Source: Deltaproteobacteria bacterium GWC2_55_46
GTDB lineage: Bacteria > Desulfobacterota > GWC2-55-46
Length of the DNA: 64,000 nt
Assembly: GCA_001595385.3 (NCBI GenBank)
Contig: LVEI03000001.1
Span: 1,517,501-1,581,500, forward strand
Direction of reading: 5' to 3'
Shown: one piece after another, positions 6,071-59,089 of the stretch
How the letters are laid out: each line of letters starts with the position of its first letter
Numbering within the stretch: the first letter of the stretch is position 1
The notes under the pieces: model-generated
Seen by the model: the letters and a program-made list of their open reading frames with translations, nothing else
What the model was told of the DNA's origin: nothing
The model's database searches: none
Program-made: the position numbers and the translations under genes

Positions 6071-6125
6071 CCCCCCCTTTTCTAAAGGGGGGGAAGGGGG
6101 ATTATATTGGTGCGCACAGCGCACC
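6071..6125. repeat. REP-like palindromes (C7/G7 hairpin and GGTGCGC dyad)
   Basis: CCCCCCC (6071-6077) pairs with GGGGGGG (6087-6093). It is followed by GGTGCGC aca GCGCACC (6109-6125). The same two modules recur together at 58925-59089 and, in part, at 36307-36335 and 47846-47923. This is a dispersed intergenic repeat family; the copy here could also stop transcription of the upstream operon. Confidence 0.7.
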
Positions 6126-6179
6126 CTACAATACTGAATGATTCCTGCGTGTTTGGGTTCTCGGAATGACCGCTTGACC

Positions 6180-33225: not shown

Positions 33226-34664
<1,439 letters not shown>

Positions 34665-34708: not shown

Positions 34709-34793
34709 GGAGGGTTAGGCTAATGGTAAGTCACCGGTCTTGAAAACCGGCGGGCTAACGCCCTTGGGGGTTCGAGTCCCTCACCCTCCGCCA
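34709..34793 (+). tRNA. tRNA-Ser (anticodon UGA)
   Basis: The acceptor stem GGAGGGT (34709-34715) pairs with ACCCTCC (34783-34789). The anticodon stem-loop CCGGT-CTTGAAA-ACCGG gives TGA, a long class II variable arm follows, the T-loop is TTCGAGT and CCA is encoded. It lies just downstream of serS. Accessory DNA begins immediately after its 3' end. Confidence 0.97.
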
Positions 34794-34804
34794 GTTTTTT
34801 GTAA

Positions 34805-35127
34805 ACTTCTTCAACAAAATCATTGTTGTTGCGCAGCCAGAAGGAAGCGGCGGGAACCTACGGCAGAGCCGCCAAGCAACTTGAACGAGACCTCGACCGC
34901 CAGGAACAGTTCATATCGGAACTTCACGACTTCAAGGATAAGCTCCGCCGCACGGCAGACTTACATTGATGCCGGACCTGAACGACGGCGCAGTCCTCAA
35001 TATCGCCCCGTTGTGGGAAATGGTTCCGTGGAAAGAGGCCAAGAAGTACTGGGAGGAACTCTCGGAGGACAAATACGAATGGTCCTCGGTCGGAAAGCAA
35101 CTCCAGGAGAAGGGGCTGGTCAGATGA
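34805..35127 (+). pseudogene. Decayed 3' end of an adenine-specific DNA methyltransferase-like gene
   Basis: Two frames join across a one-base deletion near 34967. The first (open from 34805 to the TGA at 34967-34969) encodes LLRSQKEAAGTYGRAAKQLE … ISELHDFKDKLRRTADLH. The second (34969-35127) encodes MPDLNDGAVLNIAPLWEMVP … WKEAKKYWEELSEDKYEWSS … LQEKGLVR. Rejoined, this reads like the extreme C-terminus of large PglX/Eco57I-type N6-adenine methyltransferases of defence loci, by my recollection of such sequences. Everything upstream of these 107 residues is missing: the gene is cut off 11 bp after the tRNA-Ser CCA. Its stop overlaps the SIR2 gene start as ATGA, so the two once formed an operon. 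Confidence 0.55.
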
Positions 35128-36254
35128 GCAACCACCATACTCAGAAGCCGAAAACTGTTGTGTTCCTTGGCGCTGGTGCATCATGCGCTGAAGGGGCACC
35201 TTTACAGGGCAAGCTCTTTCGGAAATACTTCACCTATTACAATAGTCCTATGAATCAACAATGTCTCCGTCATCGGTGGGATGAGGAACTGGCTATGTTT
35301 TTCAAAACGTTCTTTGGAATTGACATTAATGATAAAGAAGGTATTAAGACTGCGAGTTTTCCTACATTCGAGGAAGTTCTCGGAATCATCGAGATTGCCG
35401 ACTCTCAAAATGAGAGTTTTAAGGGTTGGGACACATCAGAGCATGTCCACAGGCTTATCAGTGATCAAAAGCCGCTTCTTAAACATATGCACGATATCTT
35501 GATACTGCTAATAGCCGAAATCCTCGATTACACGCTTAAAGATAAGGCCCAATATCATCCTCAATTGATACGGTCACTTCATGATGCTGATTGGCTACGT
35601 ACCACATCATTTATCAGCCTCAATTACGATATTCTTATAGATAATGCTTTGCTAAAGGCTGACGAGGAATATGGCCTCGACTTGGATTATGCCATTGATT
35701 TTGTGAATTTCGGTGATGAATGGCGGCCGCCTAATAAGGAGAATAATCTAAAGCTGTTTAAACTACATGGAAGCTTGAACTGGTTGTATTGCCCGACGTG
35801 CAGAACAATCAGGATTACGCCGAAGGAAAAGGGTGTTTGTCATCTCAAATGGAAGCGTGAAGATTGTGTTTGCAAGAAGTGCGATACCCTTGCGGTTCCC
35901 ATAGTCATACCTCCCACATATTTCAAAGCGCTATCGAATCTATATCTTCGGCACATTTGGCACGCTGCTGAGCAAGCGCTCATGGAATGTGACCGCCTCA
36001 TTTTCTGTGGGTACTCCTTTCCTGATGCTGACGTTCATATTCGTTACCTGCTAAAGCGAATAGAAATGAGTCGGCAAAGTTCTCCAGAAGTATATATCGT
36101 CAATGAACATAAGGGGAAAAAGAATGACTCACGACTGACGGAAAAAAGCCGATATATGAGGTTTTTCCTCGACAAGACAAAAGTGTACTGGACGAAGCTC
36201 TCGTTTGAAAAATTCTGCGAGAACCCGACATCCATTGAGGGTTCATCCAGATGA
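35124..36254 (+). CDS. SIR2-like domain protein (putative defence NADase)
   Basis: A 376-residue protein starting at ATG 35124 (MSNHHTQKPK), overlapping the methyltransferase remnant by 4 bp. The N-terminal VVFLGAGASCAEGAPL (GAGAS 16-20) is the SIR2 nucleotide-binding loop. SLNYDILID supplies the catalytic-type Asn (N167) and LHGSLNWLYC the His (H215). A four-Cys module follows (CPTCR … C…CVCKKC, about 223-253) and IFCGYSFPDADVHIRYLLKR closes the fold. SIR2-like proteins of this kind deplete NAD+ in several anti-phage systems. Codon use and base content are clearly more AT-rich than in neighbouring genes, a sign of transfer. The frame is open upstream to 34740 through the tRNA, but that part is noise. 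Confidence 0.8.
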   Translation: MSNHHTQKPKTVVFLGAGASCAEGAPLQGKLFRKYFTYYNSPMNQQCLRHRWDEELAMFFKTFFGIDINDKEGIKTASFPTFEEVLGIIEIADSQNESFKGWDTSEHVHRLISDQKPLLKHMHDILILLIAEILDYTLKDKAQYHPQLIRSLHDADWLRTTSFISLNYDILIDNALLKADEEYGLDLDYAIDFVNFGDEWRPPNKENNLKLFKLHGSLNWLYCPTCRTIRITPKEKGVCHLKWKREDCVCKKCDTLAVPIVIPPTYFKALSNLYLRHIWHAAEQALMECDRLIFCGYSFPDADVHIRYLLKRIEMSRQSSPEVYIVNEHKGKKNDSRLTEKSRYMRFFLDKTKVYWTKLSFEKFCENPTSIEGSSR

Positions 36255-36306
36255 GAAAAGCTGGTATGGCAAGAAGGAGGGGCTAAGCTTATGGCATTCC
36301 AGCCGT

Positions 36307-36335
36307 GTAGGGTGTGCTCTGCGCACCGTTGATTT
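36307..36335. repeat. Degenerate GGTGCGC-type palindrome copy
   Basis: GTGTAGGGTGTGCTCTGCGC and following bases match the GTAGGGTGCGC-xx-GCGCACC modules at 6109 and 58965/59032. It lies just behind the SIR2 gene and marks the return to ordinary intergenic sequence. Confidence 0.5.
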
Positions 36336-36476: not shown

Positions 36477-36860
36477 ATGGCTTACAGGGTAAAAGAGGCG
36501 GAGTTCAGGGCGTTTGCCGCAAGGGCGCTGGACAACCTTCCCGATGAGTTCAGGGAACGGATGGAGAACGTCGTAGTGGTCGTGGAGGATTACCCCTCTG
36601 TCGAGGACGCCGCAGGCGCGGGTATCCCGCGTGAAGAGCTTCTCGGGCTATTTCACGGCGTATCACGGCTTGAGCGTGAATGGTCCAACAGCGCGCCTGA
36701 CCATCTTCCCGAAAGGATCGTGCTTTACAAGCGCAACATCGAGGCGGTCTCTTCCACGGAAGAGGAGCTTGTCGAAGAGATACGCCTGACCGTCCTCCAC
36801 GAGATAGGCCATTACTTCGGCCTGAGCGAGGAAGATCTCGAGAAGTACGAGAACGAATAA
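36477..36860 (+). CDS. Zincin-like metallopeptidase family protein
   Basis: A 127-residue protein with HEIGHYFGLSEED near the C-terminus: HExxH plus a downstream Gly and Asp, the signature of the small 'possibl_zn-dependent protease' (Zincin_1, DUF1025-like) family. The rest is acidic. Substrates are unknown; such proteins are widespread in bacteria and sometimes sit in toxin-antitoxin-like settings. The start is ATG at 36477, and it stands alone. Confidence 0.8.
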   Translation: MAYRVKEAEFRAFAARALDNLPDEFRERMENVVVVVEDYPSVEDAAGAGIPREELLGLFHGVSRLEREWSNSAPDHLPERIVLYKRNIEAVSSTEEELVEEIRLTVLHEIGHYFGLSEEDLEKYENE

Positions 36861-58924: not shown

Positions 58925-59089
58925 GGTCCCCCTCTTTCCTAAAGAGGGGTCAGGGGAGATTATACGTAGGGTGCGCCGTGCGCACCAAAAATAGTCCCCC
59001 TTTGGAAAAGGGGGAGATTTCAGAGATTATACGTAGGGTGCGCCGTGCGCACCAAAAATAGTCCCCCTTTAGGAAATGGGGAGATTTCA
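58925..59089. repeat. Tandem REP repeat (67-bp unit) between phosphomannomutase and regulator B
   Basis: Two near-identical units start with GAGATTATACG at 58956 and 59023. Each contains GTAGGGTGCGC-cg-TGCGCACC and a C5/G5 hairpin. Related single copies are at 6071-6125 and 47846-47923. They fill the gap up to the leader of the second CI-like gene. Confidence 0.85.

Follow-up and report, generated by a model that had tools for sequence, protein, structure and literature searches.

An intact SIR2_2 gene behind a pglX remnant in a variable tRNA-Ser/zincin gap: a probable slice of a BREX operon

The window, a stretch of 64,000 nucleotides from Deltaproteobacteria bacterium GWC2_55_46 (contig LVEI03000001.1), contains about 1.47 kb of foreign DNA, flanked by tRNA-Ser(TGA) on the left and by a zincin gene on the right. 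We consider this segment, with a probability of roughly 0.75, to be a slice from the interior of a type-1-like BREX operon, lying in a defence-gene hotspot, of which the 3'-terminal part of pglX and the SIR2 gene from the slot have been kept. A BREX origin of the segment can be asserted with high confidence.

The foreign segment and its site

The features of the site are listed in Table 1. An AT-rich spacer of ~35 bases separates the end of the tRNA (34793) from the start of the PglX homology (~34829), which extends to 35127 as LRSQKEAAGTYGRAAKQLERDLDRQEQFISELHDFKDKLRRTADLH, a TGA/ATG overlap and then PDLNDGAVLNIAPLWEMVPWKEAKKYWEELSEDKYEWSSVGKQLQEKGLVR. The TGA stop (34967-34969) overlaps an ATG at 34969 (TGATG, 34967-34971) and, because the two parts occupy different frames, the fragment is frameshifted. 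The first-pass annotation had recognized a frameshifted methyltransferase remnant directly after the tRNA but credited it with 107 codons; we find 46 plus 52 codons and a stop, or ~99 codons of the C-terminus. That the remnant is PglX-like was borne out by a match to the PADLOC PglX model (E 1.9e-7) and by a scan of species-representative genomes, in which the PglX tails of 18 loci share 68-82 % identity with the 52 aa tail. A match to NCBIfam BREX_6_MTaseX (2.5e-4) is below the cut-off. At the 21 positions that are invariant in other PglX tails the fragment departs once, no more than intact genes do, and the truncation of pglX is, on these comparisons, probably recent.

Table 1. Features of the tRNA-Ser/zincin site (positions are those of the window)
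Feature	Position	Strand	Evidence	Remark
serS, seryl-tRNA synthetase	33387..34664	+	Pfam tRNA-synt_2b, Seryl_tRNA_N	left flank of the site, conserved in the family
tRNA-Ser(TGA)	34709..34793	+	ARAGORN; 3' end CCA	left edge of the hotspot
pglX (BREX adenine methyltransferase) C-terminal fragment, part 1	34829..34969	+	46 codons align with PglX tails of L115-L131	ends at frameshift/TGA
pglX C-terminal fragment, part 2 (PDLNDGAVLNIAPLW...GLVR*)	34969..35127	+	52 codons and stop, shifted frame	TGATG restart
SIR2_2 family gene, 376 aa, intact	35124..36254	+	Pfam SIR2_2 2.2e-11; PADLOC SIR2 models; alignment A3	
Post-SIR2 remainder up to right junction	36255..36300	+	sequence; comparison with empty site L054	
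REP-like native repeat, terminator-like	36308..36327	+	repeat count, terminator scan	outside foreign segment
Zincin-like metallopeptidase gene	36477..36860	+	Pfam Zincin_1 9.6e-27	right flank, conserved

The stop of the pglX tail and the start of the intact SIR2 gene share an ATGA (35124-35127), as was already noticed on first reading. As the tail is well conserved, opens with the ATG of the TGATG overlap and is closed by this ATGA, it might be supposed that its 52 aa have been retained as a small coupled gene, either a leader or a partner of SIR2. This is highly improbable, given that operon ancestry accounts for the ATGA, the corresponding genes of locus L131 (see below) overlapping at the same place, and that no second genome with a free-standing pair of tail and SIR2 was found.

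At the other end, a further ATGA overlap at 36251, comparable to that between SIR2 and pglZ in L131, opens the post-SIR2 remainder. The right junction would lie near 36295-36305, judging from comparison with the empty site L054 and from the repeat at 36308-36327, which is native to the chromosome. This REP-like palindrome, TAGGGTGNGC..GCNCACC, is present in four copies in the window (6109-6128, 36308-36327, 58967-58986 and 59034-59053) where 0 are expected, and a similar repeat is found in L054 and at the tRNA-Ser/zincin site in related genomes. A mini-ORF after SIR2, "MAFQPCRVCSAHR", was dismissed because it runs into the native repeat. The foreign segment yielded no convincing promoter, and transcription by read-through from serS and the tRNA is possible.

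The segment as a whole had been described as richer in AT than its flanks. This holds for the SIR2 gene, with a GC content of 43.1 % that is lower than that of every other sampled 1131 bp stretch of the window (mean 54.2 %), but not for the pglX tail (55 %). The unlike composition of the two fits a separate entry of the SIR2 module into its BREX operon.

The related genomes share the order serS, tRNA-Ser(TGA), gap, zincin. serS is present in 24 of 30 family genomes, the tRNA stands beside it at the same position in relatives, and orthologues of the zincin gene (74-85 % identity) are found in 11 family genomes. In the window, a tandem repeat with a 69 bp unit (33226-33385; 2.3 copies, 94 % matches) lies just 5' of serS. 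The gap is directly measurable in seven relatives (G005, G002, G010, G001, G004, G021 and G026), as they have serS, the tRNA and the zincin gene on one contig; in the remaining related genomes the contig is broken or a single flank was found. In G005, which belongs to the same genus, the gap is empty (L054; 197 bp). The foreign segment is absent from all five genomes of the genus apart from that of the window. Elsewhere the gap carries other cargo. That of G010 (L055) is PDC-S59, a defence candidate of PADLOC; along its length it shares 25 % identity with the gene immediately preceding pglX in L118, a BREX locus. G026 (L059) has an HNH-like fragment, and the genes in the gaps of G002, G001 and G004 are without assignment. 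Two further genomes have one flank of the gap on the contig: G019 (L063), with LmuA and LmuB of Lamassu 3' of the tRNA, and G003 (L060), with the C-terminus of a UvrD/GajB-like helicase beside the zincin gene. One gene at this site in G002, of 326 aa and on the minus strand (L053, 720-1700), has no Pfam or PADLOC match and is a possible defence gene.

As the gap is empty or differently loaded in relatives, Lamassu included, it is a defence-gene hotspot. An insertion at the tRNA had been proposed at first; in its classical form this found no support, as there is no integrase in the foreign segment and no same-strand direct repeat of the tRNA of at least 12 bases in 34001-64000, and integration at an att site was therefore rejected. 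The simplest reading would be that cargo is exchanged by recombination between the conserved flanks, serS-tRNA and zincin. Origin from a phage or virus was likewise rejected, as the SIR2 gene has no match in phage records or IMG/VR and the pglX tail has none in IMG/VR.

The parent BREX operon and its accessory slot

An intact pglX-SIR2-pglZ locus was found once, in a Rhodopirellula MAG (L131; JAAYEH010000543.1), and it provides the intact methyltransferase-SIR2 pair that the first-pass annotation had suggested looking for in relatives. In L131, which is a 6.9 kb contig with pglX cut by the contig end, the end of pglX, SIR2 and pglZ follow each other and overlap, the ATG of SIR2 (1814) preceding the stop of pglX (1827) and the stop of SIR2 overlapping the start of pglZ as ATGA. 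The two SIR2 proteins share 63 % identity over 371 aa with their ends aligned, and the pglX ends share 76.6 % identity over 256 bp (blastn). The pglX and pglZ genes of L131 match the PADLOC PglX and PglZ models, with matches to the NCBIfam BREX-1 and BREX-6 models below their cut-offs. Seventeen further loci contain PglX tails like that of the window and most are BREX operons; in one (L117), PglX is above the BREX-1 cut-off and BrxL is above the BrxL cut-off. As L131 and the PglX-tail loci show BREX, we rejected the alternative that methyltransferase and SIR2 form a two-gene system of their own. The view that the segment is a surviving part of an anti-phage operon can thus be kept, the operon being BREX, but it is not the distal part as first thought; it is an internal slice, since pglZ lies 3' of SIR2 in L131 and brxL lies 3' of pglZ in other PglX-tail loci.

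The tail in the window is closer to those of the short-tailed PglX of L115-L129 (up to 82 %) than to that of L131 (75 %) and, though this alignment is short, SIR2 may have passed between BREX lineages. In a partial sampling that took in ~390 genomes from the phylum of the Rhodopirellula MAG, ~390 from that of Nostoc and 400 from that of a Chloroflexi MAG, no pglX-SIR2-pglZ locus beyond L131 was found. Plasmids yielded no SIR2 relatives closer to that of the window, and loci L147-L155 have other neighbours. The coupling of SIR2 to BREX may be incidental, because the other homologues examined stand alone or beside non-BREX genes.

In related loci with enough sequence, the interval between pglX and pglZ holds variable accessory genes. 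PtuA and PtuB of Septu occupy it in L116, the order of genes being the same in L120, and a protein that appears to resemble AlbA_2 transcription regulators is found in L115, L124, L125 and L128. Nothing lies between pglX and pglZ in L117 and L132. Among plasmid BREX loci, that of Hymenobacter has a SEC-C protein in the slot, that of Thioflavicoccus a toxin-antitoxin-like pair and others, and that of Natronosalvus two unknown opposite-strand genes. The ATPase and DUF4435 genes in the slot of Salmonella LT2 are, we take it, AriA and AriB of PARIS. SIR2 is thus an addition to the genes of a place that is known for nuclease and other back-up effectors. The two Salmonella genes have been described (PMC9009780), and PARIS has been mentioned together with Salmonella BREX (PMC11341690). 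SIR2, sirtuin and NADase all go unmentioned in a 2026 catalogue of BREX back-up nucleases (PMC12839542).

The genome containing the window (2.79 Mb in 3 contigs, estimated to be 100 % complete) includes no PF08665 match for PglZ and no full-length BrxL, the only matches being sub-cut-off ones to the Lon-like C-terminal part. For pglX, type 1 BREX is represented only by the frameshifted C-terminal codons, and the genes adjoining the segment, serS and zincin, do not include core BREX genes.

The SIR2 protein and its persistence

The assignment of the 376 aa protein to SIR2, made initially from the sequence, was upheld, as it scores 44.5 bits against Pfam SIR2_2 (PF13289; gathering cut-off 24.5) and several PADLOC SIR2 models match it, with Pfam SIR2 at 15.3 bits falling below its cut-off of 24. 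The motifs are GAGAS (16-20), N167/D169, H215 and GYSFPDAD (296-303). In an alignment of 20 sequences the GAG loop, Asn167, Asp169, Lys213, Gly216 and Ser217 are invariant and His215 is present in 19 of the 20. N167 and H215 align with the catalytic Asn and His of SIR2 NADases, which in DSR2 are N133 and H171 (PMC11087589). A PDB profile search with the SIR2 alignment placed antiphage SIR2 proteins first (8w9l at the top, E 3.7e-14, with 8yhx and 8j4u), DSR2 and ThsA lower, and canonical sirtuins behind the antiphage proteins. An AlphaFold2 model built from two sequences had a pLDDT of 46, too low for use. With its NAD site and catalytic Asn and His retained, the SIR2 protein of the window is likely to be an abortive-infection effector of the NADase type.

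Two CxxC motifs (223-226 and 250-253) form a putative zinc module at the canonical sirtuin zinc position; C223, C226 and C250 are present in at least 18 of the 20 sequences and the second Cys pair in most of them. The first-pass annotation had considered the CxxC module to be C-terminal, but it lies within the SIR2 domain and is of the sirtuin type. SIR2_2 proteins are reported to be without a zinc module, which has been tied to deacetylation in published work (PMC12700824), and the clade to which the protein belongs seems, from the conservation of these Cys residues, to be an exception to that statement. A zinc-bearing SIR2 might therefore be a protein deacylase or ADP-ribosyltransferase rather than a NADase, a reading consistent with the first Cys being located at H+8 (H215/C223), as in E. 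coli CobB (H147/C155), and with matches to Pfam SIR2 and to the deacylase model PRK00481 that span residues 210-298 and include the module. We regard it as unlikely, because the best family match is SIR2_2, the best PDB matches, ahead of the canonical sirtuins, are antiphage SIR2 proteins, and the genomic company consists of BREX and other defence genes.

Most relatives of this SIR2 have no BREX alongside. Those on Rhizobium plasmids are single genes, one on a Vibrio plasmid (L009) lies among cassette-like genes, and in four species of another genus (L098-L101) a homologue is found at a single conserved chromosomal site, flanked by a two-component/GAF gene and by a gene for a tungstate-type binding protein. 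The member of this set that was aligned (L099) is 42 % identical to the SIR2 of the window, and the homologues in L096 and L097 reach 43 % identity. The short contig of L097, assigned to a genome of the phylum of the window, also encodes a ribosomal L5-like protein (65-616) that looks archaeal, and the contig may be misbinned. Comparison of the window and L131 SIR2 genes (pN 0.22, with a pS of 0.84 that is saturated) points clearly to purifying selection at the level of the family. As stand-alone homologues are kept elsewhere, the protein family can persist alone.

It is nevertheless quite possible that the SIR2 gene is a dead relic, a passenger of a recent deletion that is unexpressed or useless and will decay as pglX has. 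The truncated and frameshifted pglX, the lack of PglZ and full-length BrxL in the genome, the lack of a clear promoter in the segment, its absence from all five congeneric genomes and the decayed cargo at the hotspot elsewhere (the HNH fragment in G026 and the UvrD C-terminus in G003) all agree with this. Against it are the SIR2 frame, intact over all 376 codons with every catalytic and Cys residue present, and the stand-alone homologues, both those kept at one place in four species and that on the Vibrio plasmid. However, the pglX tail has hardly decayed beyond its frameshift, so the intact SIR2 frame is no proof of selective retention.

If the segment is, as we favour, an internal slice of BREX with a SIR2 effector, everything 5' and 3' of the pglX end and SIR2 has been lost. 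The SIR2 protein would bind NAD via the GAGAS Rossmann loop, phage infection would trigger it, and cleavage of NAD by Asn167/His215 would stop the cell before phage release. In the complete operon, the overlaps of SIR2 with pglX on one side and pglZ on the other would tie its dose to BREX, and it would serve as a back-up when BREX fails, as PARIS does in the same slot. The gene in the window would have to act on its own, as many of its homologues seem to do. The broader proposal that the zinc-bearing SIR2_2 clade is an exchangeable BREX back-up in the pglX-pglZ slot, which depletes NAD when BREX is inhibited and survives the loss of BREX, is rather doubtful. If true, BREX would gain its first NADase effector, and SIR2_2 a group with the canonical sirtuin zinc module. 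On the favoured reading of an internal slice, the locus is a relic in which the slot gene alone has stayed intact after loss of the core BREX operon. The clade seems to run contrary to the statement that SIR2_2 proteins lack the module. As the protein is small and has a single domain, the points concerning the slot and the zinc module are directly testable.

Comparison with known systems

The nearest parallel is PARIS in the BREX operon of Salmonella LT2, which holds the same position as SIR2, 3' of pglX and 5' of pglZ (PMC9009780), and is alike in probably acting as an abortive-infection effector within a defence operon based on modification. As for a back-up effector of the PARIS kind, which answers to anti-restriction or anti-BREX proteins, the slot position alone is common to the two. 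The effector in the window and in L131 is a SIR2 protein rather than a nuclease/ATPase pair or a HEPN protein; compare also BxaP, an abortive-infection protein found inserted in BREX of type 3 and able to work by itself (PMC10799925). Unlike in Salmonella LT2, the core BREX genes are gone from the window.

ThsA, DSR1/DSR2 and SIR2-HerA have the Rossmann GAG motif and the catalytic Asn and His in common with the window SIR2, but at only ~376 aa the latter is without SLOG, sensor or HerA partner. Thoeris, DSR2 and SIR2-HerA were each rejected as the system represented here, as neither SLOG with ThsB, nor a DSR2 of ~1000 aa, nor HerA is present and the protein aligns end to end with the SIR2 of L131. 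SIR2_2 proteins are said to lack the zinc module (PMC12700824), whereas the window SIR2 has CxxC...CxxC at the sirtuin zinc position. Canonical sirtuins such as E. coli CobB likewise have the first zinc Cys eight residues past the catalytic His, but their similarity to the window SIR2 is weak and the protein falls in SIR2_2.
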